A stretch of 64,000 nucleotides of DNA from [Leptolyngbya] sp. PCC 7376. Lineage in GTDB: Bacteria > Cyanobacteriota > Cyanobacteriia > Cyanobacteriales > MRBY01. This document shows, piece by piece, positions 7,348 to 45,039 of the stretch. Below the pieces are notes generated by a model. It was given only the letters and a program-made list of their open reading frames with translations. It did no database searches and was not told where the DNA came from. The translations under genes and the position numbers were made by a program. The stretch spans positions 4,386,036 through 4,450,035 of the forward strand of contig NC_019683.1 of NCBI RefSeq assembly GCF_000316605.1, in the 5' to 3' direction. Every line of letters begins with the position of its first letter. Positions within the stretch are counted from its first letter, which is position 1.

Positions 7348-8784
7348 TTAACCAAAAATAGCAGCCGTAGGTGCACTGATTTTTAACTTACCCATCATGC
7401 CTAAATCTTCATGATCAAGAATGTGGCAATGGTAGACTGTCTCACCAGTGAAATGCTCAAACTTCATTCGGATTTTGATGGTTTCGCCGACTTTTACTAA
7501 AACTGTGTCGTGCCAGACAATCATCTCTTCTGGAATGCCATTGCGGCTAATAATCTGAAATTTGTTGGTATGGATATGGAAAGGGTGATCCATCGTTCCC
7601 ATATTCTTAATCTCCCAATCTTCCACCGTATCGAGAGTGACTTCAGTTTGCACTGCACCGGAATAGGATTCGCCATTAATCAAAAATGCCATCCCCTGCC
7701 CTTTCACCATGCCATGGTTGAGCGTGAATTGCCTTGTTTGCTGAGGTTCTGGTAATTGCTCAATAGGCTGTAAGGTCTCAGGCAAATACACAACATCAAA
7801 ATCTTTTGCTGCCCGCTTAAAGTCGGCGATCGCCTCAATTGTTTGCGGAGTTTGGTTTCCCATCATGCCCATTTGAGTACGTTTATAAGGGAGATTAAGG
7901 AGATGAATCGGAATATCCGGTAAATCGGCGGTATGGATTAAAAGTTCAGCTCTTTGTCCGGGGGTGAGCAGCAATTTATCGATTTCGATGGGTTGAGATA
8001 ATGCCCCACCATCATTGGAAATTTGGACTAGCTTTTGTCCCTTGATTTCCAAATGGTAAAACCTTGAAGGGGAAGCATTAACCAGACGCAACCGCAGCAA
8101 ATCTTCTGTCACCTCAATGCTCGGATGGTAACTGCCATTCACCAATCGCAATGAGCCTTCCCGACCTGCCATTAAATTCATGTGGCGGCTATTGGCATCC
8201 GGTGACGCAAAATCCTGCAACAGAAAAAATTCTTCCTGAGCCACCGCAATTTCTGGAATCTCATCCAATGCCCCTCGCACGACAATGATGCCAGCTAGTC
8301 CTCGAAAGAGCTGTTCTGCGACCGAGCCATGGAGATGAGGGTGATACCAGTGGGTTCCAGCTCGCTGTTGGGGATGAATATCTAGCTCATAGGTATGGCT
8401 TTGACCTGGGGCAATTTTTAGAAAAACATTGTCCTGATCTGGCGATAGGTGCAAGCCATGGAAATGTAAATTTGTCGCTTGGTCGAGATCATTTTTGAAA
8501 TGGATAATGAGGCGATCGCCGGCATTAACTTCTAGGCGAGGCGCTGGAATTTGACCGTTGTAGGTCATCATCTGTGGGAATGGCTGTTCCGCTAAAACCA
8601 AGTCACTATACTGCGCAGTTAAATCAATTTCTAGTAACCCATTCTCGCTACGAAATACCTGAGTAGGAGTTTCATTATTAGCCGGAGTGTTTGGGATAGA
8701 AGAATTCCCACAACTCTTCAGTGCGAAAGCTCCCAATGTTCCTAGCGCTCCCATTGTGATAAATTCTCGCCGCCGAATTCCCAT
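7348..8784 (-). CDS. Multicopper oxidase, Tat-exported (CueO/laccase type)
   Basis: A three-cupredoxin-domain enzyme that oxidises Cu(I) or organic substrates in the periplasm. All four copper-binding blocks are visible: HFHGLHL, HWYHPHLHG, HPFHIH and HCHILDHEDLGMM. The amino terminus starting MGIRRREFITMG is a twin-arginine signal, followed by a hydrophobic stretch ending at a Cys. The open frame reaches back to 8862, but that would overlap the upstream gene and bury the Tat signal, so I place the start at the ATG at 8784, preceded by AGGTAAAG. It follows the DUF411 gene on the same strand by 40 bp, likely one metal-responsive operon. Confidence 0.93.
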   Translation of the reverse strand: MGIRRREFITMGALGTLGAFALKSCGNSSIPNTPANNETPTQVFRSENGLLEIDLTAQYSDLVLAEQPFPQMMTYNGQIPAPRLEVNAGDRLIIHFKNDLDQATNLHFHGLHLSPDQDNVFLKIAPGQSHTYELDIHPQQRAGTHWYHPHLHGSVAEQLFRGLAGIIVVRGALDEIPEIAVAQEEFFLLQDFASPDANSRHMNLMAGREGSLRLVNGSYHPSIEVTEDLLRLRLVNASPSRFYHLEIKGQKLVQISNDGGALSQPIEIDKLLLTPGQRAELLIHTADLPDIPIHLLNLPYKRTQMGMMGNQTPQTIEAIADFKRAAKDFDVVYLPETLQPIEQLPEPQQTRQFTLNHGMVKGQGMAFLINGESYSGAVQTEVTLDTVEDWEIKNMGTMDHPFHIHTNKFQIISRNGIPEEMIVWHDTVLVKVGETIKIRMKFEHFTGETVYHCHILDHEDLGMMGKLKISAPTAAIFG

Positions 8785-8824
8785 TTTCTTTACCTGATTG
8801 ACCGCTCGATTTCGCAATGATTTT

Positions 8825-9343
8825 CTATTCGTAACTGGCAAACACTGATGTTGAGCCATCACGATTTAACGCCAAAACATCATAGGGCTGAGTTTTATTC
8901 GCCATTTCCATACCAGGAGAACCAATGGGCATTCCCGGCACAGTGAGGCCAATAGCTTCTGCGGGAGGGTTAGCGAGGAAGTGTCTTACTTCTGCTGCTG
9001 GGATATGTCCTTCAAAAACAAAACCTTCAGCAATAGTCGTATGGCAAGACGCAAGCTCGGGGGTGATGCTGTACTGTTCTTTGATTGATGTGATGTTTTC
9101 CTGCTGGCGATCGCCAATGACAAAGCCATGGGTTTGAGCATGGTCAATCCAAAGTCCACAACACCCGCAAGTCGGTGTCCGAAAAACCTCTGCTTCAATA
9201 GGTTGGGTCTGAGACACAGTTGTATGGGTCGATTCAGCTGTCGTAGAAACAGAGCGGGATTGAGTAAACCAATACCAACTACCACCAATACCCAAGCCAA
9301 TAGCAACCAAACTTCCGATCATTAACCGCTTCATAGATTTCAA
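8825..9343 (-). CDS. DUF411 metal-binding periplasmic protein
   Basis: The protein has an amino-terminal signal or anchor (residues 7-26, LMIGSLVAIGLGIGGSWYWF) and a DUF411 domain with PTCGCCGLW (Cys 59, 61, 62), a downstream ASCHTT and PGMPIGSPGME. DUF411 proteins commonly sit next to copper oxidases or copper efflux genes and are thought to bind copper. Here the gene leads the multicopper oxidase, and a mer-like promoter lies just upstream. ATG at 9343 and a second ATG three codons later are both possible starts. Confidence 0.88.
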   Translation of the reverse strand: MKSMKRLMIGSLVAIGLGIGGSWYWFTQSRSVSTTAESTHTTVSQTQPIEAEVFRTPTCGCCGLWIDHAQTHGFVIGDRQQENITSIKEQYSITPELASCHTTIAEGFVFEGHIPAAEVRHFLANPPAEAIGLTVPGMPIGSPGMEMANKTQPYDVLALNRDGSTSVFASYE

Positions 9344-9370
9344 GAAATATTTCGATAGGGCATTTCGTCC

Positions 9371-9402
9371 ACCTTAAACTCTCTAGTTCACTGGAGAGTC
9401 AA
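9371..9402 (-). promoter_or_regulatory. MerR-type metal-responsive promoter for the DUF411-MCO operon
   Basis: On the reverse strand there is TTGACT (-35, 9402-9397), a 20-bp spacer and TAAGGT (-10, 9376-9371). The spacer carries a dyad, ACTCTC...GAGAGT (9399-9394 and 9383-9378). A long spacer holding a dyad and the sequences TTGACT/TAAGGT are hallmarks of promoters activated by MerR-family regulators such as MerR and CueR. Transcription would start near 9364, about 20 bp before the ATG. No MerR gene is in the window. Confidence 0.7.
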
Positions 9403-9450
9403 GGTGTTTTAATGAAGTTTTGAAGAGACTTAGATCGAAAATTCCAAGCG

Positions 9451-9729
9451 ATGACTAATGCCCATGAAATATTGCTCGCCCATGATCCCAAATTCCATAC
9501 AGGTGAGACTCAAGAGTCGGAAGTAAATCAATCTGAATCAACACTAGAGCTTTCTGATGAGAAAGCGGAAGAGTTTGCTCCACCTGTAGAACCTTTGGAA
9601 ATAACGGCAACGGAACTCACGCCTATTTATGAAAATGCCATCAGTGTTGAGCAGATTGTTAATGTTACGAGCTTTGCTTTGCTGTTGATTGTGCCGGTTG
9701 TTTTTTGGTTATTCCGATATCGGCAATGA
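9451..9729 (+). CDS. Small tail-anchored hypothetical protein, 92 aa
   Basis: An acidic, probably disordered amino-terminal part (residues 1-65, rich in Glu) is followed by one transmembrane segment near the end (FALLLIVPVVFWLFRY). It is divergent from the copper operon and precedes gatD by 94 bp. I do not recognise the family. The layout, a negatively charged cytoplasmic arm on a carboxy-terminal anchor, suggests a partner-binding membrane protein, but nothing in the sequence points to a function. Confidence 0.6.
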   Translation: MTNAHEILLAHDPKFHTGETQESEVNQSESTLELSDEKAEEFAPPVEPLEITATELTPIYENAISVEQIVNVTSFALLLIVPVVFWLFRYRQ

Positions 9730-11525: not shown

Positions 11526-12686
11526 ATGACAATGGATCTCGAACAGTTGCATCTACAGTTTCCGGCGATCGCAGCGAAGTCCTATTTTAATTTTGGTGGA
11601 CAGGGGCCTCTATCTCAAAAATCCCTGAATGCAATCATCTCCAGCTACGACAAAGTGCAAGTGCAAGGGCCATTTTCTATTGCGGTGAATGATTGGGCAC
11701 AGGATGTAATGGCTGCCACAAAACAGGCGATCGCCACAGAGATTGGTGCTCAGCCCAGAAATATTGTCCTCACTGAAAATGTCACGATTGGCTGCAATAT
11801 TGCGTTGTGGGGTATCGAGTGGCAAGAAGGTGATGAAGTTTTGGTGGGGGATTGTGAGCATCCCGGCGTCATTGGCACGCTCCAAGAATTGGTGCATCGC
11901 TTTGGCATAAAAATAAATTTCTGCCCAATTTTTGACACGCTTAACGAAGGCAATCCTACTGAAGTTATTGCCCAGCATCTAACCCCGAAAACCCGCTGTT
12001 TAGTGATTAGCCACTTGCTCTGGAATACCGGACAGGTTTTACCAATAAAAGACATTTGTGAGCTATGCCATAAACAAGATGTCCAGGTGATGGTGGACGC
12101 TGCGCAATCCGTCGGCAGTCTCGCCCTAAATTTAGAAGATATCGGCGGTGATTTTTATGCGTTTACTGGCCATAAATGGTGTTGTGGTCCAGCAGGTGTA
12201 GGTGGTTTGTATGTGTCTGAAGCTGCAATGCCAACTTTGCGACCGACATTTATCGGCTGGCGTGGTGTCAAAATTTGGCCTTCCCCTTTCGACGTCAAAC
12301 TCAAAAACGATGGCAATCAATACGAAGTTGCGACCTCAGCCTATCCGCTGCAAGCAGGCTTAACGGAAGCGATTAAGCTCCACCAAAGCTACGGGACAGC
12401 AGAGGAGCGCTACGCCAAAATTTGTGAGATGAGTGCTTACGCTTGGGAAAGATTAGGTTCAATTGATGCAGTGTCTTGCCTTAAAAATACTCCACCAAAA
12501 TCAGGCTTAGTTTCCTTCACCGTTGACTCTCCTATCGGTCACAAAAAGCTCGTCGAAATCCTCGAAGAAAAGGGGTTTTGTCTGCGGACTCTCACCTATC
12601 CAGATTGCATTCGCGCTTGTACTCACTACTTCACAAGCCATGCTGAAATTGATCAATTGATTATTGCAATAAAAGCTCTGCTGTGA
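11526..12686 (+). CDS. L-cysteine/cystine lyase, C-DES-like (class V aminotransferase fold)
   Basis: The enzyme is a PLP-dependent, NifS-fold protein of 386 residues. Signals: YFNFGGQGPLS near the start, LTENVTIGCNIALWG, VGDCEHPGV, VMVDAAQSVGSL and the Schiff-base lysine in FTGHKWCCGPAGVGG (Lys217). Overall wording closely follows the cyanobacterial C-DES, a cystine lyase that releases persulfide sulfur able to support FeS cluster assembly in vitro. The usual desulfurase catalytic cysteine loop of IscS/SufS is not evident, which supports lyase rather than desulfurase. It is convergent with the gene at 12802. Confidence 0.85.
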   Translation: MTMDLEQLHLQFPAIAAKSYFNFGGQGPLSQKSLNAIISSYDKVQVQGPFSIAVNDWAQDVMAATKQAIATEIGAQPRNIVLTENVTIGCNIALWGIEWQEGDEVLVGDCEHPGVIGTLQELVHRFGIKINFCPIFDTLNEGNPTEVIAQHLTPKTRCLVISHLLWNTGQVLPIKDICELCHKQDVQVMVDAAQSVGSLALNLEDIGGDFYAFTGHKWCCGPAGVGGLYVSEAAMPTLRPTFIGWRGVKIWPSPFDVKLKNDGNQYEVATSAYPLQAGLTEAIKLHQSYGTAEERYAKICEMSAYAWERLGSIDAVSCLKNTPPKSGLVSFTVDSPIGHKKLVEILEEKGFCLRTLTYPDCIRACTHYFTSHAEIDQLIIAIKALL

Positions 12687-12801
12687 ATACCGCTTACTTA
12701 AGTTAAAAATACTTTTCCTCTTGTACATAACAGAAAAAATACATTTAGGTAAATCAGTTTTCCTCGGCTACCATTCAGAGAAATATCTTTTTTAAAAGTT
12801 A

Positions 12802-14355
12802 TCAAGAGCCATAGAAAAAATTATTCACCATATTATTATTTAGAGGAGAAATATCTCGAACACGGACGCGATTTAACTTTTTAAGTTGTTGAATATCCGT
12901 GAGCAATTCAGAAATGGTATTTCCTTTTTTGAGTATGACTTGAGTTAAAACTTGAGAACTTCTATTTTCTTTGATTGGTTGAACACTATGAATATTATAT
13001 TCCCAACAATAGTCTTTATCTAAAAAAACTATCAGCTCTGATAAAGCACCGGGTTGATTATATAAATTCAGCTGTAAGTTGACTCCGAGTAAGTCACAAT
13101 TCCACTGCAAATCAATCAAATCATCCGAATGCATGTGCTTAATATAATCGCAGCATTTAGTATGAACACGAATAGGCCTTCTACCAGAAGATATAATACC
13201 GGCTATATCATCATTAAGGCTGGGATTACAGCATATGGATATGTTATATCTTTTAGTTTTGAGTAGATCTTTATTGTAGGGTGATAAGAAAAAGCTGTAT
13301 TCAACATTTTCAATACTATCTAGAAGCATTTGAAGTTCTTCGATCTTAATCCTGCCCAGACCTAAATATAGAACCAAATCTCTTCTGGATTTTATTCCTT
13401 TCAAAGAGTTAAGATCATTATATATAGATGCCTCTTCAAGCATTCTTCTTTGATTTTTATTGAGGCTTTTATTAATTATCTTCCAACCTTTTTTTCTGTA
13501 AGATCTCTCAAAAGCTTTTGTTAAAGCTTTTACAGTGCTTTTTTTTCGGCAATATAGCCTTAGATATTTTTCAAGATCAGAATACAAAGTAGCATTTAGA
13601 TTAGTAGATTTAAATATATCATTTGGCTTTCCTCGAACGATTTCAATAGTTTCCCCTCCTCTTAAAATATGATTTAAAGGGACTTGGATTCCATCTACTA
13701 CAGCTCCTATACAACTTGTTGTGAATTTTGTATGTAGAGAATGGGCAAAATCAATTGGTGTGGCGTTGCAAGGCAACTCGACAATCCTTCCTTTCGGAGT
13801 CTTAACAAAAATAGAATTATTACAACTCTCAATCTTTGGAATAAAGCGGACATCTTGATTTAAATGGGCCAAAAACTCTCCCAGATCATAAATGGGAGTT
13901 TGGAAATGCTTAAAGAACTTCGGGTTCAACTCTAAAATCTGCTTTAAAATTACTTTACTGTCTTCCGTACAAACAACAGCATCTGCCTTAATCATTTTTG
14001 CAGAGACTAGTATTAAACCTTCATGATAACAAGACTCTTCTGGCAAATCTAACTCTACAAAATCCTCACCGCATTGATCCAAAGAAATGTTATTTTCAAG
14101 AGTTATATATTGATTTAATTGTCTCATTTGATCACGAAATTGCTGTCTAGAAGAACACGAATCTTCGATAGACACCTGGATAAAGCTACTCAAACCAGGA
14201 TGCAGATAAACTGAAACAATATCTGCTTCTATAAGTTTTTTAAATACCTGAGCATTTTCTATTTTTTTGTATAGATTTTCTTCTTCAGGAGTGGACCACC
14301 CATTGCTCAGTATCCAATCAACTAAAAGATGCCCACATACGGTTACCTTAATCAT
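12802..14355 (-). CDS. PIN-like domain fused to RelA/SpoT regulatory half (TGS-helical-zinc finger-ACT)
   Basis: The 517-residue protein lacks the HD hydrolase and (p)ppGpp synthetase domains of RSH enzymes but keeps the whole carboxy-terminal regulatory half. TGS (about 181-243): IFVKTPKGRIVELPCNATPI, DFAHSLH, CIGAVVDG, GGETIEIVRGKP. Helical region: about 250-345. Zinc-finger-like region: Cys375-Cys376, His398, Cys402. ACT (about 425-505): NLQLNLYNQPGALSEL. Residues 1-168 look like a PIN fold: KVTVCGHLLVDWIL, HEGLILVSAKMIKADAVVCTED and a closing TPIYDLGEFLAHL. The first acidic position of PIN nucleases appears replaced (Cys7), while Glu112 and Asp132 could remain. It follows a ribbon-helix-helix-like gene by 23 bp. 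The C-terminal assignment is firm; the PIN call is inference. It is AT-rich and HIP1-free. Confidence 0.8.
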   Translation of the reverse strand: MIKVTVCGHLLVDWILSNGWSTPEEENLYKKIENAQVFKKLIEADIVSVYLHPGLSSFIQVSIEDSCSSRQQFRDQMRQLNQYITLENNISLDQCGEDFVELDLPEESCYHEGLILVSAKMIKADAVVCTEDSKVILKQILELNPKFFKHFQTPIYDLGEFLAHLNQDVRFIPKIESCNNSIFVKTPKGRIVELPCNATPIDFAHSLHTKFTTSCIGAVVDGIQVPLNHILRGGETIEIVRGKPNDIFKSTNLNATLYSDLEKYLRLYCRKKSTVKALTKAFERSYRKKGWKIINKSLNKNQRRMLEEASIYNDLNSLKGIKSRRDLVLYLGLGRIKIEELQMLLDSIENVEYSFFLSPYNKDLLKTKRYNISICCNPSLNDDIAGIISSGRRPIRVHTKCCDYIKHMHSDDLIDLQWNCDLLGVNLQLNLYNQPGALSELIVFLDKDYCWEYNIHSVQPIKENRSSQVLTQVILKKGNTISELLTDIQQLKKLNRVRVRDISPLNNNMVNNFFYGS

Positions 14356-14378
14356 TAGTACACTCCTGATTTATTTAT

Positions 14379-14723
14379 CTACTGTTTATTCTTTTTCCTT
14401 TGTGTTGTAGGTCTAAATTTCTTTAGATTCATTCTCTCTCGAATGATTTTTCCTTTCTCTGTCCTTTCCTGTAATCTTTTTTTGATGTTCTCTTTTGTAT
14501 CAGGACTAGCAGGAACAACCATCAGCTCTCCTTCACCAATCTTTCTCAACAAACCTGAAATCCAAGGCTTATCGCCATAATAAATCCCGTACTCTTCTGC
14601 AATATCCTCTAAGACTAAACAAGTCTTAGATGGTAAGCGCATACTAATGGATTCATTATCCTCTTTTGGGCGTTTGCCTCTACCTTTTTCCAGCCCACTA
14701 ATGTTGGGATTAGGATTTGCCAT
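14379..14723 (-). CDS. Ribbon-helix-helix-like small protein, putative antitoxin or regulator
   Basis: The 114-residue protein has a basic amino terminus (GLEKGRGKRPKEDN), then ESISMRLPSKTCLVLEDIAEEYG, a pattern of one beta strand followed by helices as in CopG/Arc ribbon-helix-helix proteins, then WISGLLRKIGEGEL, and a very basic Lys/Arg tail. It is the first gene of a two-gene unit, 23 bp before the PIN-like/TGS/ACT gene. The order, size and spacing are typical of type II antitoxin-toxin pairs, with the antitoxin first and likely to bind its own promoter. Function is inferred from context only. Confidence 0.7.
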   Translation of the reverse strand: MANPNPNISGLEKGRGKRPKEDNESISMRLPSKTCLVLEDIAEEYGIYYGDKPWISGLLRKIGEGELMVVPASPDTKENIKKRLQERTEKGKIIRERMNLKKFRPTTQRKKNKQ

Positions 14724-14867
14724 AGCTTTATTACTCTTTCAATTTCCTCAGATCAAGTGGGAAACACCTCTTTTAATATCCATTATCGTAAGAACCTCAT
14801 TCAAGTTCGTCAATAGTCTTTCCAAAACTGACCAGAAGTATGACTTTTTGTTAACGAGAAATGGACA

Positions 14868-14904
14868 GACTATACACAAAGCACCTAGGTGGGTATACAC
14901 TTTT
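14868..14904. promoter_or_regulatory. Palindromic candidate operator between the two-gene unit and the next small gene
   Basis: A perfect 10-bp palindrome CACCTAGGTG (14882-14891) is flanked by TATAC-containing sequence on both sides (CTATACAC before, GGTATACAC after). It is about 150 bp upstream of the ribbon-helix-helix gene and 50 bp upstream of the small gene at 14941. Ribbon-helix-helix proteins bind short palindromes, so this is a reasonable but unproven autoregulatory site. Confidence 0.35.
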
Positions 14905-14940
14905 GGGACAAGTATCAGTAACCTAATAGAGGTATTGGAT

Positions 14941-15156
14941 ATGAGAAATTCTTATGAAGCACTTTGTGGCAAGGTCGCAGACAAGCTAGACGAAATAGAA
15001 TTTCAGGTAATTGTTGGCGGCCGCTACCTCATGGCTGAAGCATATTATCTCGGGACTCATGTCGTAATTGAAGTAGGGGATCAGGTATTAGTGCTAGGGA
15101 CAAAAGGAGCAAAAGTCTTGATCGCACCATTCTATGAAGATGCTTTTTTGACATAG
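14941..15156 (+). CDS. Small hypothetical protein, 71 aa
   Basis: The open frame extends upstream to 14647, but that part runs antisense through the start of the ribbon-helix-helix gene and reads as low-quality sequence. The ATG at 14941 is preceded by GAGG at a good distance, giving a 71-residue protein starting MRNSYEALCGKVADKLDE. The carboxy-terminal part has alternating hydrophobic residues suggestive of beta strands (HVVIEVGDQVLVLGTKGAKVL cut here for length). No family is recognised. It lies in the AT-rich island and may be a mobile accessory gene. Confidence 0.45.
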   Translation: MRNSYEALCGKVADKLDEIEFQVIVGGRYLMAEAYYLGTHVVIEVGDQVLVLGTKGAKVLIAPFYEDAFLT

Positions 15157-15462
15157 TACGCTCATAGAAATTTGGATGAGATTAGGCGGTGAGAAAAAGA
15201 TTTTCACTTGATAGAAAGATAACTAAGGCTGAATTTTAGAACTATCAAAAAATGATATCTGCTGTCCTATAACCAACCCAATATCAAGAATCTGAATTCG
15301 ATCATTTATGTTTAAAGCAAGAGTATTTTCGGCAGTATTCTATGAGTTTTGATATTCTCCTAGGCTTCTGAATCTTTTATCTAAACATGATCTTTAGGGA
15401 CTAAGCAATTGGATTTGCTTCTAGAAAAAAATATTTTGAAATCGTAGTGATTAAGGAGTTCG
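15157..15462. other. AT-rich intergenic region in the island
   Basis: No open frame of interest was found on either strand in this 306-bp stretch. It holds AT-rich sequence and, at its right end, an AAGGAG ribosome-binding site about 9 bp before the next gene. No HIP1 site is present. Confidence 0.4.
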
Positions 15463-15732
15463 ATGATGATAACTCAATATGACTGCAGGCGGAGCGGTTG
15501 CGAAATTTTGATACACCCTGATGACCCACGACAATGGTATTGCCGCTATTGCAATCAGCGCTTTTATAAGTCCAATAATAAAACTGATGACAAATCCAAT
15601 GGAAGTTTCTTTCTATTGTTTATAGGTCTTCTAATACTGATCTTATTATTGAGCTTGTCTTTTTCTGAGGAAATCAATAATTCACCTCAGGAGTTCCCTT
15701 CTAGCGGAATATCATCAAAAACTCACATGTGA
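15463..15732 (+). CDS. Zinc-ribbon plus transmembrane small protein, 89 aa
   Basis: The amino-terminal third carries a CRRSGCEI...WYCRYCNQRFY pattern, i.e. two cysteine pairs about 20 residues apart, typical of a zinc ribbon. A strongly hydrophobic segment follows (FFLLFIGLLILILLLSLSF), then a short polar tail. A good Shine-Dalgarno site (AAGGAG) precedes the ATG. The stop codon lies inside a perfect 34-bp palindrome that can act as terminator. It is probably membrane-anchored with the zinc ribbon in the cytoplasm. Function is unknown. Confidence 0.6.
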   Translation: MMITQYDCRRSGCEILIHPDDPRQWYCRYCNQRFYKSNNKTDDKSNGSFFLLFIGLLILILLLSLSFSEEINNSPQEFPSSGISSKTHM

Positions 15733-15744
15733 GTTTTTGATGAT
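15711..15744. terminator. Perfect 34-bp palindrome over the stop codon, likely terminator
   Basis: Two 17-base arms, ATCATCAAAAACTCACA and its exact complement, meet with no loop. The right arm contains GTTTTTG, so the transcript can form a hairpin with a U-rich side. The TGA stop of the zinc-ribbon gene is at 15730-15732 in the centre. A perfect stem including coding sequence is unusual for a plain terminator. Confidence 0.6.
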
Positions 15745-15760
15745 TAATAGCAAGAATTAG

Positions 15761-15789
15761 TCAATTATGATTGAGCAAATCATAATTGA
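15761..15789. repeat. AT-rich inverted repeat
   Basis: TCAATTATGA (15761-15770) and TCATAATTGA (15780-15789) are perfect 10-bp inverted arms with a 9-base loop, 16 bp after the 34-bp palindrome. It may be a second hairpin of a terminator pair or an end remnant of a mobile element. Confidence 0.5.
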
Positions 15790-15833
15790 CTTTAAAGGAT
15801 AAATGGAAAGATCTACATGCAACCTTTTTGTAA

Positions 15834-15874
15834 ATCAAGATGGAAATGAAATCAAGATGGAAATGAAATCAAGA
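15834..15874. repeat. Short tandem repeat, 17-bp unit
   Basis: ATCAAGATGGAAATGAA occurs twice in tandem (15834-15850, 15851-15867) and a third time as its first seven bases (15868-15874). Such slippage repeats are common in decaying non-coding sequence. Confidence 0.7.
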
Positions 15875-15987
15875 TTCTATACGATAAATCTAGCAAGCAT
15901 AAAGACGCATTAATCAAACCGAAGAACTTTTCCGAACACTTTGAATGGCAATGTCAACTTAAGCAAGAGGTATTCACAGCAAGGTGC

Positions 15988-16200
15988 ATGGGAAGATTCA
16001 AATCCCCTGGCCATGCCCAACGATTTTTATCAGCATTTGAACCAATACGAGGATACTTCTACCCACATCAACCCCAGCATCCGGCCAGAGAATATCGAGA
16101 AATAATGAGTCAACGAATAGAGAGTTGGCGGAAATTAATACGTTTAGAGAAGGGCTCCCAAATCAGAGACAGCCGCTCCTTCCTTACAAAAAAATTGTAG
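15988..16200 (+). pseudogene. IS6-family transposase C-terminal remnant
   Basis: The encoded fragment reads MGRFKSPGHAQRFLSAFEPI and continues with REYREIMSQRIESWRKL. FKSPxHAQRFLS followed by a Y-R-x-x-M-x-x-R-F/I-x-x-W segment is the usual carboxy-terminal end of IS6-type transposases. The DDE catalytic part is missing upstream, where the sequence is interrupted. The final residues after about 16150 are not part of the match. This is debris of an insertion sequence in the AT-rich island. Confidence 0.65.
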
Positions 16201-16345
16201 CTACTTTCCTCAAATCTTCAGTTAAGTTGACAATGCCCCAACGAGAAATGCGCGAAGAAACTAATTGGTCACATCTCCAAATATTGGGCTGCTTTTATTC
16301 TGTGAGGAGAATGGAATTAGAAGTAATGGGCAAAGGATGAAAACA

Positions 16346-16490
16346 TCAGGCTAAATCCTGAAGTCGATTAATCGCGGAACGAAGAGGTTTCTCGTTGTAG
16401 GGCATAATATGAGGGAACATTTCGCGAAAAAAAGACGTTTCAAGACCTGTAACCCCATGCCTATTCACCGAGCGATCGCCTAAATTATTG
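16346..16490 (-). pseudogene. 3' fragment of an unidentified gene
   Basis: Reverse-strand reading gives NRHGVTGLETSFFREMFPHI then MPYNEKPLRSAINRLQDLA and a stop at 16346-16348. The fluent protein-like sequence, with no start codon before it and a HIP1 site inside, indicates the tail of a once longer native gene cut by rearrangement. The rest of the gene is not in the neighbouring sequence. I do not recognise the family. Confidence 0.4.
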
Positions 16491-37519: not shown

Positions 37520-37703
37520 GATTTCTCTATTCTTTGGCGATCGCTATTGAACCATCGTTTATTATGGGTCACTTTTCGACATTTGGGATAGAGAATTATA
37601 AAACAATTTAAAAATAGAACTTCAAAACAACAATATAATCCCTAATTCAGAAAATACTTAGCAACTACTTTAAAATGAACCAAATCCGATCCTCTTCACG
37701 TAA

Positions 37704-39368
37704 ATGTCATTACCTCAGCCTCAAACTCGAACATTCACTAGCCTAATCACAGATATATTAGAAGGACAGATTCAGATTCCTCAGTTTCAAAGAGATTTCG
37801 TTTGGACAATGCAGAAGTCAGCAGGTCTCATTGATAGCATCGTTAAAGGATATCCGATAGGGACTTTTATCTTTTGGCGAACACAAGAAAGACTTCGCTC
37901 CATCAAAAAACTTGGACAACAATCCCTCCCTGAACCTGATGAAAATCAATTGATTGACTATGTATTAGATGGTCAACAACGTTTAACAAGTCTCTTTGCA
38001 AGTTTACGAGGCATTAAGTTATATAGAGAAGGGAAAAAAGAAGACGATTTCTCCAAGATATTTATCGACTTAGAAGCTAGCAAGTTTGAACAAATAGTTG
38101 TCGTTAATGCTGAAGGGAAAGAAAAAGATCAACTAATAAGTATTTTGACTTTATTAGAAGGTGATTTCACCTCACTTGGCTTATATAAGTCCATCTATCA
38201 TCCAAAGATTAAAGAATACCAAGATAGAATACGAAGCTATCAATTTTCAATTATTCAAGTTCAAGATGTCCCCATTGATATTGCGACAGAGATATTTACA
38301 CGTATTAATGTAGGAGGAAAACCTCTTTCTCTTTTTGAGATCATGGTTGCAAAAACATATGATCATGAGAAAAAGTTTGATTTATCTGAAAAATTTCAGG
38401 AATTATTGGATGTTTTAAAACCTCTGAATTACGAAACCATCTCTGATGCTATTATTCTTCAGACTGTTTCCATGATTCTAGCTAAAGAATGTAATCGAAA
38501 AACGATACTAAAACTTGATAAGAATAAGTTTATTGAAGTGTGGGAAAAAGCAAAAGATGCAATTGAACGTTGTATAGAATATTTCAGAAGTTATTATAGA
38601 ATCCCTGTTTCACAACTTTTGCCTTATAACGGGCTCATTGTGCAATTTTCATATTTCTTTTTTCACCACCCTGATAAACCTACAGGAGACAAGCAAAAAT
38701 TCTTAGAGGATTTCTTTTGGAGATGTTCTTTATCTGGAAGATATTCGTCTTCTCTTGAAAGCAAATTAGCTCAGGATATTAAAAGAATTGATCAAATTTT
38801 GAATGATCAGCTACCTACTTATGACTATGCTGTAGATACTTCTCCTGACTTTATTATTAATAATGGATGGTTTAGTGCGGGCAGAAGCTATATAAAAGCA
38901 ATTTTGTCCATTTATGCATATTTCCAACCTCAATCATTTGTTGATAGTTCACTAGTCAACATCAGTAATTATTGGCTAAAACAAGCAAACAGTAAAAATT
39001 ACCATCACTTTTTCCCAAAAGCTTATTTATTGAAAAGACAAGAAGATTCATTTAGGATAAACCATATTCTGAATATAACAATTGTCGATGATTTTTTAAA
39101 CAAAAGGCTTATTAGAACTAAAGCACCATCTTTATACATGAATGATTTTAAAAATAAGAATAAAGACATTGAATCTGCAATGAAAAGTCATTTAATAGAT
39201 ATTGATGGATTTGGTATTTGGGATGATGATTATGATGTCTTCTTTGAGGAAAGAGCAAAAAAAGTTAGTGAAGAACTCAGTAAAAGAATTATTAGGCAAG
39301 ATGGAGACTTACAAGATCAATCTGATCTAAAAGATGATTATGAAGAGGAGCCAACGATTACAGAATAA
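37704..39368 (+). CDS. DUF262/DUF1524-like protein (GmrSD family), possible defence nuclease
   Basis: The amino-terminal DUF262 domain has IPQFQRDFVW (25-34), the nucleotide-binding signature VLDGQQRLTSL (87-97) and RINVGGKPLSLFE. The carboxy-terminal part has NYHHFFPKAYLLKRQ (His434-His435) and INHILNITIVDDFLNKR, which resemble the DUF1524 His-Asn-His nuclease of GmrSD-type enzymes. GmrSD is a type IV restriction system cutting modified phage DNA, and the same domains occur in BREX and other defence genes. The gene is AT-rich, has no HIP1 site and stands alone, consistent with acquisition. Whether it restricts anything is inference. Confidence 0.8.
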   Translation: MSLPQPQTRTFTSLITDILEGQIQIPQFQRDFVWTMQKSAGLIDSIVKGYPIGTFIFWRTQERLRSIKKLGQQSLPEPDENQLIDYVLDGQQRLTSLFASLRGIKLYREGKKEDDFSKIFIDLEASKFEQIVVVNAEGKEKDQLISILTLLEGDFTSLGLYKSIYHPKIKEYQDRIRSYQFSIIQVQDVPIDIATEIFTRINVGGKPLSLFEIMVAKTYDHEKKFDLSEKFQELLDVLKPLNYETISDAIILQTVSMILAKECNRKTILKLDKNKFIEVWEKAKDAIERCIEYFRSYYRIPVSQLLPYNGLIVQFSYFFFHHPDKPTGDKQKFLEDFFWRCSLSGRYSSSLESKLAQDIKRIDQILNDQLPTYDYAVDTSPDFIINNGWFSAGRSYIKAILSIYAYFQPQSFVDSSLVNISNYWLKQANSKNYHHFFPKAYLLKRQEDSFRINHILNITIVDDFLNKRLIRTKAPSLYMNDFKNKNKDIESAMKSHLIDIDGFGIWDDDYDVFFEERAKKVSEELSKRIIRQDGDLQDQSDLKDDYEEEPTITE

Positions 39369-39633
39369 CTTTTAGAAGAAAATGCTTCTCTTTTCTATAG
39401 TAGAGGTGGGAAATTATAAGGTACTTTGAGCCATGTTGAAAATAATTCAAGTTGATATAACACGATAGAAGGTTAGGCTTGCTGAACGAATAGCATTTGT
39501 TTCGGATGTGTCAGCCGATGACAGAAATGTCCGACAATCGCCCAGCCCTTGAGATTTATGTATTCATCTGGAGTCGAGTGAGAGAAGCTCAGGCACAATG
39601 AGATAATGATTGGCGTGCGTTTTCGAGTGGCTG

Positions 39634-41310
39634 ATGAAATCCCGTTCTTTTTTCGTTTACCTTGGTCTGCTGGCTGTATTGTTGCTCTCTGTGGGAGCAG
39701 CGAGTTGGTATGGCATTTTTGCTCAAAGTCCTTTGCCTTGGCTAAAAGGTGGTGTGGCGACAAACCCTGCAGCAGCGTTATTTGTCCCGCGTCAGGCTCC
39801 CTTGATGCTGTCGATGGTCGTGAATCCAGAGAAATTAGCTGCATTAGGATTAGTGCAGAGTCCCTACGGTAAACGCCGGGAAACCTTGCAGGAACTCCAG
39901 CAAGCAAAAACTAGTTTGATGAGTGCGACGGGATTAGACTACACCAAACAAATTGAGCCATGGCTTGGTAACGAAATTAGTTTAGCGGTGACCACTCTCG
40001 ATGTGGATCGCAATCCTGAAAATGGTGTGACGCCTGGATATCTGCTGGTCGTTGAGGCACGGGATCAAGAACTGGCAAAAGAATTTCTCCAGCTTGCCTA
40101 CACTGAGCAGGCTTTGTCACCGGATTCTGCCTTAAGCTACGAAACCTATAAAGGCGTAAATCTCGTTATTCCAGATGTGAAAACAAAGCAATTTGCCAGC
40201 GCCATTGTTGGAAATTATGTGCTGTTTGCCAGCGAAGGAAAAGTGCTCCGCAGTGCCATTAATACAGTGCAAGTGCCTGATCTCAACCTCAGCCACGATC
40301 CTCAGTACAACGAAGCCCTCGAAACGATTGATCGCGATCATATTGGTATTGCCGTAGCAAATTTACCTGCTCTGAGTGCCTGGATAGCGAACGATATCAA
40401 TCCTGAAGAACCGACTCTAAAACAACGGTTGGCGATTGCCCTAAGCTTACAAACCGATGGCTTAATTGCCGAGACTGCGCTGATTGGGGATACGGAACCA
40501 GCTTTAAACCGTCCGATGTTAACTGAGCCCGTTGAAGCCTTAAACTACATTCCGCCCCAAGCTTTACTGGCAGTGGCTGGACGCGATTTAAATCAGCTTT
40601 GGACAGACGCAACCACTGGACTGAATCCCAGTAGCCCCCTATCCCAAGTGTTACAGCAATCTGTTGTCGCTGTTCAAGAGCCCCTCGGCATTGATTTACC
40701 CGCTGATATTTTTGAATGGATTGCTGATGACTATGCGTTGGCGATCGTCCCCACCGAAGATCCTCGCAAAGTAGATTGGTTATTTGTCGCTGCACGGGAC
40801 GAAGAAACGAATATTGATCCCATCATTGACCATTTCGATGAACTTGCCCAAGCTAAAGGATTAAGTGTCGGTAGACTGCCTTTGGACGATCGCAAAGTAA
40901 CAGCCTGGACCGCCATTGATACTTCCGACCGTGATGATTTAGTGCAATTAAATGCGGAAGTCCAAGGTGCTCACATTAGCGTGGAAAACTATGAACTTTT
41001 TGCCAGCTCAGTCAAAGTTCTCAGCCGTGCTATTAAAGCCAGCAAGAAACAATCCCTACTCGACAATAAAAACTTTAAAACTAGTCTCCAAAAACTCCCC
41101 AGCAAAAATGGTGGTTATCTCTATGCCGATTGGCGGCGCGGTTCTTCCCTTTTTAAAACCCAAGTGCCTATTTTGCGAGTGGTGGACTATGTCGCGAAAC
41201 CCTTCTTTAATCACCTAAATTCTCTTAGCCTCACCAGCTCCGGGAATACTGAAGATATTCGCCGTTCGACATTGTTCTTTACTCTGTCGCCGGAGTCAAT
41301 CCAAAACTAA
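39634..41310 (+). CDS. DUF3352 domain protein, membrane-anchored
   Basis: The protein starts MKSRSFFVYLGLLAVLLLSV, a signal anchor, and continues with a large soluble domain of about 530 residues outside the membrane. Recognisable DUF3352 features are AALFVPRQAPLMLSMVVNPE, the repeated ‘LLVVEARDQELA’ type strands and SYETYKGVNLVIPDV. The family is common in cyanobacteria and has no established function. The open frame reaches a TTG at 39610, but ATG at 39634 places the anchor at the amino end and is preferred. Codon use is native. Confidence 0.82.
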   Translation: MKSRSFFVYLGLLAVLLLSVGAASWYGIFAQSPLPWLKGGVATNPAAALFVPRQAPLMLSMVVNPEKLAALGLVQSPYGKRRETLQELQQAKTSLMSATGLDYTKQIEPWLGNEISLAVTTLDVDRNPENGVTPGYLLVVEARDQELAKEFLQLAYTEQALSPDSALSYETYKGVNLVIPDVKTKQFASAIVGNYVLFASEGKVLRSAINTVQVPDLNLSHDPQYNEALETIDRDHIGIAVANLPALSAWIANDINPEEPTLKQRLAIALSLQTDGLIAETALIGDTEPALNRPMLTEPVEALNYIPPQALLAVAGRDLNQLWTDATTGLNPSSPLSQVLQQSVVAVQEPLGIDLPADIFEWIADDYALAIVPTEDPRKVDWLFVAARDEETNIDPIIDHFDELAQAKGLSVGRLPLDDRKVTAWTAIDTSDRDDLVQLNAEVQGAHISVENYELFASSVKVLSRAIKASKKQSLLDNKNFKTSLQKLPSKNGGYLYADWRRGSSLFKTQVPILRVVDYVAKPFFNHLNSLSLTSSGNTEDIRRSTLFFTLSPESIQN

Positions 41311-41407
41311 ATAAATAAAGTCCATATACATTAATTAAATAGTTATTGTTCTTGCAAAAAAAACAATAATAATACTACTGTAAAAATAGTTAAAGTATTT
41401 TTATCCT

Positions 41408-41797
41408 GTGATTAAAGTCAAAATCATTCCACCAAAAGGGCGAGGAGTTGTCGCTACTACTCTTATCGCAAAAGGAACCTTGATTGAAGCTTCTCCAGTG
41501 TCATCTTTCCCCAAAGAACAATGGGATATGATTAGACAAACTAGTATTTTTAAATATTGCTTTGTACGGCTCTCAGAGTATCGTATTCAAAAGAAGGTGG
41601 ATGGCTATCTTGTTTTTGGAACTTCAACCCTTTGCAACCACTCAGAGAAGCCTAATTCTTACATTGAATGGGTCGAGAATGAACTTGGTTTATGGGCACA
41701 TTTGATTGCCAAAGAAGATATACAGCCTAATGAAGAAGTCTCCATTTTCTATGCCAATATTAATGAGTATTCGTTGGCTAGTAAATTTGTCACTTAA
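41408..41797 (+). CDS. Small SET-domain protein
   Basis: The 129-residue protein matches a minimal SET domain: GRGVVATTLIAKGTLIEASP (the N-terminal GxG region), FGTSTLCNHSEKPNSYIEW (the pseudoknot motif, usually NHSxxPN) and AKEDIQPNEEVSIFYAN (the GEEL/xxxY motif, here with Tyr). SET proteins are mainly lysine methyltransferases of eukaryotes; bacterial ones are sporadic. The start is a GTG at 41408. There is no post-SET cysteine cluster here. It lies 45 bp before the sulfotransferase-like gene, in the same direction. Confidence 0.8.
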   Translation: MIKVKIIPPKGRGVVATTLIAKGTLIEASPVSSFPKEQWDMIRQTSIFKYCFVRLSEYRIQKKVDGYLVFGTSTLCNHSEKPNSYIEWVENELGLWAHLIAKEDIQPNEEVSIFYANINEYSLASKFVT

Positions 41798-41842
41798 TTA
41801 ACTACCACTCTAAACGTTTTCCGAGTTAAAAGATTTAGAATC

Positions 41843-42580
41843 ATGGAACCCGAAGTAAAGCGCATTGCAATGTGGGCGAGTCCCCGTTGTCTGTCTACTG
41901 TTCTATTAAGGTCTTGGTCATCTCGTCCAGATACTTTTGTTCAAGATGAACCTCTTTATCCCCACTATCTTTTTATTAGCGACCGTCAAGATCCAGAGCA
42001 GGCAGAAATCCTGGCTCAATATGAAACAGATTGGCGTAAAATTATCACTCAAGTAACAACAAGAACGTCACCCAATAAATCAATTTATTACTATAAGTTT
42101 ATGGTTTATCGGCTGCTTCCTCACATTGAGACGCACTGGGTTCATCAATTAACCAATTGCTTTCTCATTCGTGATCCACGGGAAATGATTCTATCCTACC
42201 TGAAACTCTGGGGCACAACACCCACTCTAGAAAGTCTCGGTACTTTACGCTTAAAAAAATTATTTAATCAAGTTTGTGAATTTAACAGTCAAATTCCACC
42301 AGTGGTTGATGCGAAAGATTTATTAGAGAATCCCAAACGTACTCTTTCATTGCTTTGTGCAGCGTTGGAAATTGACTTTGATAAAGCAATGTTGTCATGG
42401 CCAAATGGTAATCCGACTAATGATGTTTGGAGCAAATACCATTGGTATGACACCGTTAGGAATTCAACGACTTTTCATCCTGATAAACCGAAGACAGAAG
42501 TGATTCCTCCAGAACTTCATGATTTGCTTAAACAATGCAATCAGGTTTATCAAGAATTATATCAACATCGTCTTGTCTAA
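41843..42580 (+). CDS. Sulfotransferase-like protein
   Basis: The P-loop-like 5' phosphosulfate site is visible as MWASPRCLSTVLLRSW near the start, and the 3' phosphate region as CFLIRDPREMILSYLKLW. The carboxy-terminal part (FHPDKPKTEVIPPEL) is of the kind found in cyanobacterial sulfotransferase-like proteins. Such enzymes transfer sulfate from PAPS to small hydroxylated molecules. The acceptor is unknown. It follows a small SET-domain gene in the same direction. Confidence 0.75.
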   Translation: MEPEVKRIAMWASPRCLSTVLLRSWSSRPDTFVQDEPLYPHYLFISDRQDPEQAEILAQYETDWRKIITQVTTRTSPNKSIYYYKFMVYRLLPHIETHWVHQLTNCFLIRDPREMILSYLKLWGTTPTLESLGTLRLKKLFNQVCEFNSQIPPVVDAKDLLENPKRTLSLLCAALEIDFDKAMLSWPNGNPTNDVWSKYHWYDTVRNSTTFHPDKPKTEVIPPELHDLLKQCNQVYQELYQHRLV

Positions 42581-42753
42581 AATAAATTGTCGAGCGTTGT
42601 TCATGTTCCTGCATCTTTTCAACGTAATCATTTATTAAGAGCATCATGAACGTTAATGGTTGTGCGAATCGCCATTAAGATGAAAATACGGAATCAATTT
42701 TGGGTCTGATGAAGTCTAGAGTCAGATAACCTATATTATTCTGCCATCATCCT

Positions 42754-45039
42754 GTGCCCTCCGAACTCCCTACCATGACGTTGCCTACCGGACAAACGAC
42801 CCTTAATGGACGCTATCGCATCTCCCAAGAACTTGCCCAAGGGGGCTTTGGGGCAACTTTTCTTGCGGAGGACTTGCATCTGCCAGAACATCCTGCCTGC
42901 GTGGTAAAACAACTCAAACCACAAATGGACGATCCGCAATCTCTCAAAACAGCGCGGCGGCTATTTGAAACTGAGGCACAAATTTTATATGAGTTGGGGA
43001 AGTATGATGCCATCCCACAGCTTTTTGCTTATTTCGAGGAGCAACACGAGTTTTATCTCGTTCAGGAATACATTAGAGGGCAAGATTTACGGCAAGAAAT
43101 TCGGCAGCAGGGCAGACTGTCTCAAGATCAAGTTGTCGATATTCTCAAAGAAATTTTAGAGATCTTGGTGTTTGTGCATGGTAGTAATGTCATTCACCGT
43201 GACCTCAACCCCAGTAACCTCATCCGTCGGGCTAGCGATCGCCGTCTCTGTTTAATTGATTTTGGTGCAGTAAAAAGAGTTACCACCCAATTTCAGCAGG
43301 CAACGGGTCGCGCCACAGTGGCCATTGGTACCCAAGGCTATATCCCCAGCGAACAGGCTCAAGGTCGTCCACAATTTGGTAGTGATATTTATGCAGCAGG
43401 GATGATTGCCATTGAAGCTCTTACAGGACAGTTTCCTCATACCCTCGCAACCGATCCTCACACTGCAGAGTTAATTTGGCGAGATACGATCATCCATCTT
43501 GACCCTGAATTTGCTGACATTATCGACAAGATGGTGCGCCATGATTTTCGGGAACGATATTTTTCCGCCCAAGCTGCCCTCGATGCTCTTAATGAAATGG
43601 GAAAAGAAGAGGAATCAAATACTGTGGTGCTCCGTCCCCAAGTGCCCGACCCAGCAAATGTGCCAGCCAATAATGTACAAGCTGCTCCAGTGCCAGTGGC
43701 GACCTCGTCTTTTTATACTCAGGTTCCTCAGGGAGCTGGCCGAGCTTTCACCATTAATCCAAAAGATCGCACAGCAATGGCTGTGGTGATTGGTTTAGGT
43801 CTAGCAGCTGTGGTGAGTTTAGGCGCGACGCTCAATATTGGCATGCAATGGCTGTCTAGTCGTCAGGAACGGATTGAGCAATATGAGCAGGGGCAAGTTT
43901 ATCAAGAGCTGGGTGAAGCCGAAAACGCTCTCGCTAGCTATCAAGAAGTCCTCAACCAAGATGCGAGTCATCAAGGGGCATTACTCGGTAAGGCGCAGGT
44001 TTTACAACAGCTCCAGCGTTATGACGAAGCTTTGGCGACCTATGATGAGTTGCTCCAGCTCAGTCCGAATGATTGGGAAGCTTGGTGGGGGCGGGGCAAG
44101 ATTTACAGCGATCGCCAACAATATGGCCAAGCAATTACGTCTCTAAATCGAGCCATTCAGGGGAACGGCAATAATTTAGAAATTTGGCAAACAAAAGCGC
44201 AAATTCATCTTGCTCAGGATGATCGCGAGAATGCTCTCAGAAGCCTAGAGGCGGTTCTGAAACTAGATAGTCGCCAAGCTTGGGCGTGGTACGAAAAGGG
44301 CTGGATTCATCATCAACAAGAGCAATATAAAGAGGCGATCGCCGCCTATGATCGGGCGCTGCGCATCAATAATTCTGACCCAAATATTTGGTATCAAAAA
44401 GGAAATAGCTATTTCAAACTAGCCAATTATCAAGAAGCAAAAAATGCTTATGGTCGCGTGGTAAAACTTAAGCCGGATCACGCTCCCGCTTGGTATAGCC
44501 AAGGGATTGCTTTCGAAAATCTTGAGAAATTTCGTGATGCCCAGCAGTCTTTTACGAAAGTGGTTGAGTTAGAGCCAGAGAATGATCGCGCTTGGTATCA
44601 TCTCGCGTGGAATGCCCAACAGGCGAATAATCGAGACACGGCAATTATGGCCTACCGTCGCACTGTCAGCATTAAAGGTAATGACCATAGTAGCTGGGTC
44701 AATCTCGGGAACCTCTTCTACGAAGCAAAGAATTATCCTGAGGCGATCGCCGCCTATGAGCGTGCCCTTGCCCTAAAAACCCAAGACGGCAATAGTTGGG
44801 AACTCAAAGGCAATTCTCACCTACTTATCGGGGACTATGCCGAGGCGATCGCCGCCTATGATCAAGCTTTGCAATATAAGCCTGGTGATGAAGAGATTCT
44901 CGCCAATCGTGAGCAAGCCGAAGCTGAACTCGAACGTCGTCGACTCAAAGAAGAGCTCAAGGAAGAACTTAAAGAAGAGCTGGAAGAAACCGCTGAGGAT
45001 ATTAAATCTGGCCTAGACAGTCTATTACCTTGGCTCTAA
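42754..45039 (+). CDS. Serine/threonine kinase with TPR repeats
   Basis: An amino-terminal Hanks-type kinase (about 20-280) shows the glycine loop ELAQGGFGATFLAED, Lys in CVVKQLKP, the catalytic loop VIHRDLNPSNLI and LIDFGAVKR in place of DFG. A membrane segment follows (AMAVVIGLGLAAVVSLGATL, about 345-365), then about ten TPR units (about 375-725, WYEKGxxHxxxxQYxEAIAAYDRAL) and an acidic/basic coiled end rich in KEEL repeats. It would phosphorylate partners gathered by the TPR arm, likely at the membrane. Start may be GTG 42754 or ATG 42775. An IS982 copy begins 5 bp after the stop. Confidence 0.9.
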   Translation: MPSELPTMTLPTGQTTLNGRYRISQELAQGGFGATFLAEDLHLPEHPACVVKQLKPQMDDPQSLKTARRLFETEAQILYELGKYDAIPQLFAYFEEQHEFYLVQEYIRGQDLRQEIRQQGRLSQDQVVDILKEILEILVFVHGSNVIHRDLNPSNLIRRASDRRLCLIDFGAVKRVTTQFQQATGRATVAIGTQGYIPSEQAQGRPQFGSDIYAAGMIAIEALTGQFPHTLATDPHTAELIWRDTIIHLDPEFADIIDKMVRHDFRERYFSAQAALDALNEMGKEEESNTVVLRPQVPDPANVPANNVQAAPVPVATSSFYTQVPQGAGRAFTINPKDRTAMAVVIGLGLAAVVSLGATLNIGMQWLSSRQERIEQYEQGQVYQELGEAENALASYQEVLNQDASHQGALLGKAQVLQQLQRYDEALATYDELLQLSPNDWEAWWGRGKIYSDRQQYGQAITSLNRAIQGNGNNLEIWQTKAQIHLAQDDRENALRSLEAVLKLDSRQAWAWYEKGWIHHQQEQYKEAIAAYDRALRINNSDPNIWYQKGNSYFKLANYQEAKNAYGRVVKLKPDHAPAWYSQGIAFENLEKFRDAQQSFTKVVELEPENDRAWYHLAWNAQQANNRDTAIMAYRRTVSIKGNDHSSWVNLGNLFYEAKNYPEAIAAYERALALKTQDGNSWELKGNSHLLIGDYAEAIAAYDQALQYKPGDEEILANREQAEAELERRRLKEELKEELKEELEETAEDIKSGLDSLLPWL

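Follow-up and report, generated by a model that had tools for sequence, protein, structure and literature searches.

Introduction

What does the regulatory half of a RelA/SpoT protein do when it is joined to something other than an alarmone enzyme? As far as the searches described here show, this half has so far been found only with ppGpp enzymes. A locus of [Leptolyngbya] sp. PCC 7376, lying within the 64,000-nucleotide stretch of contig NC_019683.1 that was analysed (positions 4,386,036 to 4,450,035, hereafter the window), raises the question in concrete form, since it encodes such a half behind an unfamiliar N-terminal domain and, immediately upstream, a small ribbon-helix-helix (RHH)-like protein. 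The source genome, a single 5.13-Mb contig, encodes its Rel elsewhere, in a frame of 775 aa. The composition of the large protein, the reach of its family, the nature of its N-terminal domain and small partner, and the site that the two genes occupy are considered in turn, followed by what the pair might do.

Architecture of the large protein

The larger gene, placed by the sequence-only reading and by the present analysis alike at 12802-14355 on the minus strand, encodes 517 aa; Pfam, NCBIfam and PDB matches together with profile-profile comparison depict the product, referred to as the PIN-RSH protein, as a pseudo-PIN_3 domain followed by a RelA/SpoT regulatory half. Within that half, all on the minus strand, residues 182-240 constitute a TGS domain (13636-13812; Pfam E 2.8e-16), helical (AH) and CC-H-C (zinc-finger/RIS) regions occupy 13084-13635 (TIGR00691 and the PDB RelA alignment), and an ACT-like end lies at 12850-13083, where the TIGR00691 alignment extends to residue 495. 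The NCBIfam model TIGR00691 (spoT_relA) aligns its positions 355-680 of 687 with residues 174-495 (E 1.1e-30), a match that spans the regulatory half of the model only and that, at 106.6 bits, is far under a cut-off (499.2) set for whole proteins. PDB chains of RelA and Rel likewise align with the protein over two parts, the TGS region and the CC-H-C/ACT region. The Pfam model ACT_4 was not found in the window protein itself; TGS and ACT_4 are both matched in its relatives, two of which (G491 and G515) also give weak RelA_AH_RIS matches under the cut-off of that family. Residues 1-173 returned no meaningful Pfam or NCBIfam match, and the HD hydrolase and SYNTH domains are absent from the 517-aa protein. 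The original description of regulatory modules in RSH order, devoid of hydrolase and synthetase, is thus borne out by the TGS, TIGR00691 and PDB matches.

Relatives of the pair

When residues 1-176 were searched as a single sequence against 386 genomes of the phylum, only the gene itself was recovered. With the whole protein as query, 379 of the same 386 genomes gave a match, at 25-28% identity to Rel; among the matches listed, those other than the own gene cover nothing before query residue 155, and their open frames measure 715-827 aa, which is what Rel should give. A search of 72,556 plasmid records yielded one full-length relative, on plasmid pMB05 of Acaryochloris sp. 'Moss Beach' (28% identity over residues 1-505, E 6e-37), whose protein is annotated by NCBI only as 'TGS domain-containing protein'. 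With the resulting two-row alignment, four more members were recognised among 388 genomes of the class (G491, G515, G596 and G617, the large gene of the last stopping at a contig end after 64 residues). A six-row alignment added no member from the order of G491 (36 genomes) or from that of G596 (63 genomes), and a scan of genome contigs returned only a Rel-like match from Bacteroidota, to residues 179-420. The family is rare and scattered, with six places found here: the window, the Acaryochloris plasmid and four genomes that belong to two other families.

In each of these six places an RHH-like gene lies directly upstream of the large gene on the same strand, the arrangement noted for the window at the outset, so that the lack of linkage that would have spoken against a pair was not encountered. 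The two genes are separated by 23 bp in the window, 31 in Acaryochloris, 20 in G491, 25 in G515 and 24 in G596, and they overlap by 41 bases in G617. The large proteins of the relatives are 22-28% identical to that of the window, and the large gene is an open frame of 496-517 aa in four genomes; the Acaryochloris gene is split over two frames (8001-9047 and 8968-9528 of locus L062) and may therefore be dead or misread. In a phylogenetic tree, the five PIN-RSH rows of sufficient length cluster together, separately from 31 Rel rows, with support of 100/99, on a topology in which the branch of the window protein is very long and was flagged by the program.

Residues by which RelA grips tRNA are partly retained in this family. 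In RelA, H432 inserts as a wedge between C74 and C75 of the tRNA in the A site, and A76 is contacted by P411 and K412 (PMC4974054). In the PDB RelA alignment these three residues correspond to H208, P187 and K188 of the window protein; among five members, the equivalent of H432 is kept in 5/5, that of P411 in 4/5 and that of K412 in 1/5. The CC-H-C set of RelA (C612, C613, H634 and C638) aligns with C375, C376, H398 and C402, numbers obtained by counting along the same alignment, and is also kept in all five members. A structural role may account for the retention of some of these TGS and CC-H-C residues.

The N-terminal domain

The domain that stands in place of the catalytic half covers residues 1-176 (13828-14355, minus strand) and is characterised by profile searches and profile-profile comparison. 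As a single sequence, the N-terminus of the window protein matched no Pfam family, a PDB profile search with it returned chance repeat proteins only, and an AlphaFold2 single-sequence model of residues 1-182 was unusable (mean pLDDT 35). It is only with the six-member alignment that a relationship to PIN becomes visible: the six-row N-terminal profile gave just four extra weak matches in the 36 and 63 genomes mentioned above (E 0.001-0.01), and all four are short stand-alone PIN_3 proteins. In a profile-profile comparison (hhalign) with 18 PIN_3 sequences, the N-terminus reached a probability of 96.0% over 138 columns; the reference set had been picked by motif from 30 loci, and the exclusion of one junk row (L117) had raised the value from 93.4%. 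Leaving out the two PIN_3 proteins that the N-terminal profile had itself picked up gave 95.6%; with nothing but the 11 more distant PIN_3 sequences the value was 60.6%, over 55 columns. Controls gave at most 1.1% for ten column shuffles, 0.2% for the reversed alignment and 0.9% for the RHH alignment. Against 14 PIN sequences of PF01850 the N-terminus scored 0.5%, compared with 97.7% for PIN_3 against the same set, which places the link with PIN_3 specifically rather than with PIN as a whole. Judged from these profiles, the N-terminal domain has a PIN fold, with a family-specific insertion after the first strand/helix (PGW...), and the PIN-like features noticed earlier can be narrowed to a PIN_3 relationship; the missing PIN relation that would have counted against the idea is not what the profiles show. 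A degenerate Rel N-terminus was ruled out as an alternative origin by comparisons with Rel HD and SYNTH, which gave 0.1% each.

The active site tells a different story from the fold. With the PIN_3 motifs VLIDTNVVLD, FEDAV and VTRD as references, the first aspartate (D1, in LIDTN) is replaced in all six members, by Cys in the window, G596, Acaryochloris and G617, by Gly in G491 and by Asn in G515. The window protein combines this change (VTVCGHLLVD) with Glu at the D3 position and Asp at the D4 position (CTED). The D3 position is acidic (D or E) in 5/5 members; at the D4 position the window and Acaryochloris retain Asp (2/5), which the other three have lost. As D1 of PIN nucleases is a metal ligand, its replacement throughout the family makes it most likely that the PIN-related domain is not an RNase; taken together with the loss of D4 in 3/5 members, it also means that an RNase toxin, as one sense of the effector originally suspected, is weakened as an idea and is not the best reading. 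Metal binding to some extent is possible in the window and Acaryochloris proteins, since D4 is retained there.

The RHH-like partner

The small gene (14379-14723, minus strand) encodes 114 aa that end in a basic C-terminal tail of 43 residues. Although its product matched no Pfam family, the proposal that it is RHH-like held up in profile-profile comparison, in which its core reached 57.2% against RHH_1 from the six paired proteins alone and 92.3% with a wider family of 33 sequences (five shuffles, 0.3% or less), and in which the beta-alpha-alpha RHH core was recognised. The paired proteins of the relatives are 47-58% identical to that of the window.

Relatives of the RHH-like domain occur in 27 of 386 genomes, the source genome included. 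Besides the own gene, 27 loci were found, at 23 of which the domain forms the N-terminus of a protein of about 290 aa with a shared C-terminus of the L007 type (a faint resemblance to WCX, at E 0.009, short of the cut-off); the remaining four comprise one fusion to ACT domains (L014) and three short proteins. Through its L007-type and ACT fusions, the RHH-like domain emerges as a DNA-binding-like module that has been combined time and again with domains resembling sensors. The ACT fusion, a single protein of 286 aa at 1498-2358 of L014 (genome G118), has a zinc-ribbon-like membrane ORF at 571-846 divergently upstream.

The tails of these proteins differ according to their company. Counted from the end of the VVP motif, they measure 43, 32, 32, 43, 20 and 66 residues in the six paired proteins, as against 5, 11 and 6 in three unpaired ones (L005 and L006, which are two of the three short proteins, L006 being possibly a fragment, and L063 of a Gloeobacter plasmid), around which no relative of the large gene was found in the surrounding 19, 14 and 10 kb, respectively. 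A tail limited to the paired proteins is what one would expect of a partner-binding segment.

Genomic site and divergent neighbours

The site occupied by the pair is variable and AT-rich. GC content is 0.353 over 12654-16382 as compared with 0.466 and 0.476 in the flanking 4 kb, and no HIP1 site (GCGATCGC) occurs between 11727 and 16472. The island was initially described as AT-rich and HIP1-free, both of which are correct; as a gap in HIP1 sites it is not unique, being the second longest among the 84 sites of the window (the longest, of 5.7 kb, is at 37537-43235). A sibling genome, G211, keeps the flanking aminotransferase (84%) and DUF3038 (96%) genes and has, in place of 12654-16382, 1.8 kb with HNH and Uma2 genes; the corresponding stretch (L185 1207-2992, HNH nuclease and Uma2) looks like an exchange site. 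None of the island genes tested was found in stretches from five siblings; four of these stretches do not show the left flank, and one of the four is a contig end.

The divergent intergenic region upstream of the small gene (14724-14940) contains, by word scan, one CCAAAAC and one TTTTGG word and is a weak candidate operator. A 9-mer shared upstream of the pair, AGGTTTTGG/CCAAAACCT, was equalled in 1 of 200 shuffles on one measure and in 11-31 of 200 on others, and two of the three loci that carry it are near relatives; an earlier count with a fixed word was post hoc and is not counted as support. As an operator, the shared word is only suggestive.

Across this region, on the plus strand at 14941-15156, lies a small NfeD-like protein of about 71 aa if translation starts at ATG 14941 (Pfam NfeD E 0.012, below the cut-off); the longer ORF, from 14647, overlaps the RHH gene. 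Divergent NfeD-like genes by or near the RHH gene are also present in G491 (E 2.9e-14), G515 (2.3e-13) and G617 (2.5e-7), and in G596 (4.6e-6, just under the cut-off); none was found on the Acaryochloris plasmid. A short NfeD-like gene of OB type hence occupies the divergent place at 5/6 loci (window 14941-15156, L065 2820-3155, L067 2877-3200, L066 302-559 and L068 1126-1389), weakly so in the window. Farther along the plus strand (15463-15732), a motif scan picked out a protein of 89 aa that combines a zinc-ribbon-like motif with a single hydrophobic stretch; it has no Pfam match and its linkage is uncertain. ORFs of this description lie near RHH-sensor genes in three genomes (window 15463-15732, L071 4903-5256 and L014 571-846), with Pfam support that is weak or absent.

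The suggestion that the locus is a mobile or defence unit was sustained as far as its variable AT-rich site is concerned and not as to a defence role, PADLOC having matched none of six proteins at E 0.1. Among 50,697 phage records there was no match covering 80% of the query, and four scans of viral contigs with short peptide patterns, an insensitive means, gave no relative. The Acaryochloris copy is plasmid-borne (L062 2141-9528), with NACHT and NERD-type genes near it and HicAB and RelE-type genes further on.

Proposed mechanism and alternative readings

It is quite possible, if still short of probable, that the two genes constitute one sensor-regulator pair, in which a dead PIN-RelA sensor acts via its RHH partner. 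The large protein would consist of a PIN-fold pseudo-nuclease and the tRNA- and ribosome-reading half of RelA. Upon amino-acid shortage, its TGS-AH-zinc finger-ACT half would, like RelA, dock on ribosomes with uncharged tRNA in the A site, or bind tRNA, and the docked protein would make no ppGpp. The pseudo-PIN domain may serve as a protein-binding module that grips the C-terminal tail of the RHH-like partner, as in VapBC, and tRNA binding would alter this contact, whereupon the partner would repress or release its own operon and perhaps also the divergent NfeD-like gene, such that the status of uncharged tRNA would be conveyed to transcription without ppGpp. What we infer are the binding to ribosomes or tRNA, the formation of a complex, the contact with DNA and the direction of control; these steps are built upon the computed fusion, PIN_3 relationship, loss of D1, retained tRNA-contact histidine and CC-H-C set, linkage in 6/6 places and tails of the paired proteins. 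In its most specific form, the proposal amounts to alarmone-free starvation sensing, with a ppGpp-free RelA half and a dead PIN domain from a toxin-antitoxin pair reporting uncharged tRNA to a DNA-bound RHH partner, and as such it is put forward tentatively, as a possibility on the doubtful side.

Two alternatives draw on the same parts. In an active toxin-antitoxin pair, the PIN domain would cut RNA, perhaps tRNA presented by the RelA half, and the RHH-like protein would be the antitoxin; most PIN_3 relatives stand alone as short ORFs in the size range of toxins, the gene directly upstream, RHH-like and with a C-terminal tail, has what we take to be the look of vapB, HicAB and RelE genes lie in the vicinity of the plasmid-borne Acaryochloris copy, and an acidic D3 position in 5/5 members is accompanied by D4 in the window and Acaryochloris. 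The metal-binding D1 is nevertheless replaced in 6/6 members and D4 lost in 3/5, and PADLOC gave no match, all of which leaves an active toxin an unlikely reading. Slightly less unlikely is a modulator of the stringent response, whereby a non-catalytic RelA half competes with the genome's own Rel for starved ribosomes, or joins Rel via TGS/ACT, thereby lowering ppGpp, while the RHH-like protein only controls expression. Such a role agrees with the presence of that Rel, with the main contact residues kept in the regulatory half and with the ability of TGS and ACT domains to dimerise in isolation (PMC4974054); it leaves a conserved pseudo-PIN domain with its PGW... motif and the partner's tail unexplained, however, and in sequence the protein stands at a great distance from Rel (25-28% identity).

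An anti-phage or mobile-element unit, for example a detector of tRNA depletion during infection, would suit an AT-rich, HIP1-poor variable site where the sibling genome has HNH and Uma2 genes, as well as a plasmid copy near NACHT and NERD genes. That idea appears improbable in view of the empty PADLOC result, the lack of any recognised effector with an intact active site, and the absence of copies from the phage records (at 80% of the query) and from the four insensitive scans of viral contigs. Least credible of all, and largely refuted, is a decaying relic of full-length Rel with an unrelated N-terminal sequence: low identity, AT-richness and the broken frame in Acaryochloris would accord with decay, but frames that stay open for 496-517 aa in four genomes, a single group in the tree, a conserved partner and an N-terminus with no likeness to HD or SYNTH (0.1% each) argue otherwise. 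The sensor-regulator pair is the reading preferred here. If it is true, ribosome-based starvation sensing can be rewired to another output, and a toxin-antitoxin fold has in this case been turned regulator; the resulting ribosome-to-promoter switch would be a new kind of signalling system.

Comparison with known systems

Several known systems share features with the pair. The long RSH proteins (Rel/RelA/SpoT) have the same TGS, helical, CC-H-C and ACT order, and 5/5 PIN-RSH members retain both the CCA-gripping histidine and the CC-H-C set; the PIN-RSH protein differs from them in possessing a PIN_3-related domain in place of hydrolase and synthetase and in having a dedicated RHH-like partner gene. 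The RSH survey of Atkinson and others was built on the HD and SYNTH domains (PMC3153485) and would thus presumably have missed the PIN-RSH protein. Searches of the open-access literature yielded no description of the pair or of a PIN-TGS or PIN-RelA fusion.

With PIN_3 (PF13470) and VapBC systems, the pair shares the profile-profile relationship (96%), aligned beta1, D3 and D4 regions, and an upstream RHH-like gene with a C-terminal tail; linkage in 6/6 places is what points to a small gene in the same operon in the manner of VapBC. It departs from them in the replacement of D1 in 6/6 members, the PGW... insertion and the large RelA extension, and two stand-alone PIN_3 genes (L077 and L080) are preceded, by eye, by small genes of another kind. 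In toxSAS/CapRel systems, an RSH-related protein that keeps its synthetase domain is encoded beside a small partner gene, whereas the PIN-RSH protein is devoid of a synthetase domain by Pfam, NCBIfam and profile-profile comparison.

Regulators with a fused sensor provide a further parallel. RspWYL1 of CRISPR VI-D is an accessory protein of RHH and WYL parts (PMC6547453). Its RHH N-terminus is joined to a ligand- or RNA-binding module, much as the wider RHH-like family is mostly fused to L007-type proteins, but in the PIN-RSH pair the sensing would fall to a protein of its own, composed of RelA and PIN parts. RtcR, for its part, is a sigma54-type activator with a CARF domain. It activates transcription upon sensing tRNA fragments (PMC7790460), and it supplies a precedent for the direct control of transcription by the state of tRNA, although what it senses is broken and not uncharged tRNA. 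Judged from its architecture and from its departures from each of these systems, and with a function that we infer, the PIN-RSH pair appears to be a new arrangement, in which the regulatory half of RelA, a PIN_3-related domain and an RHH-like partner have been brought together.
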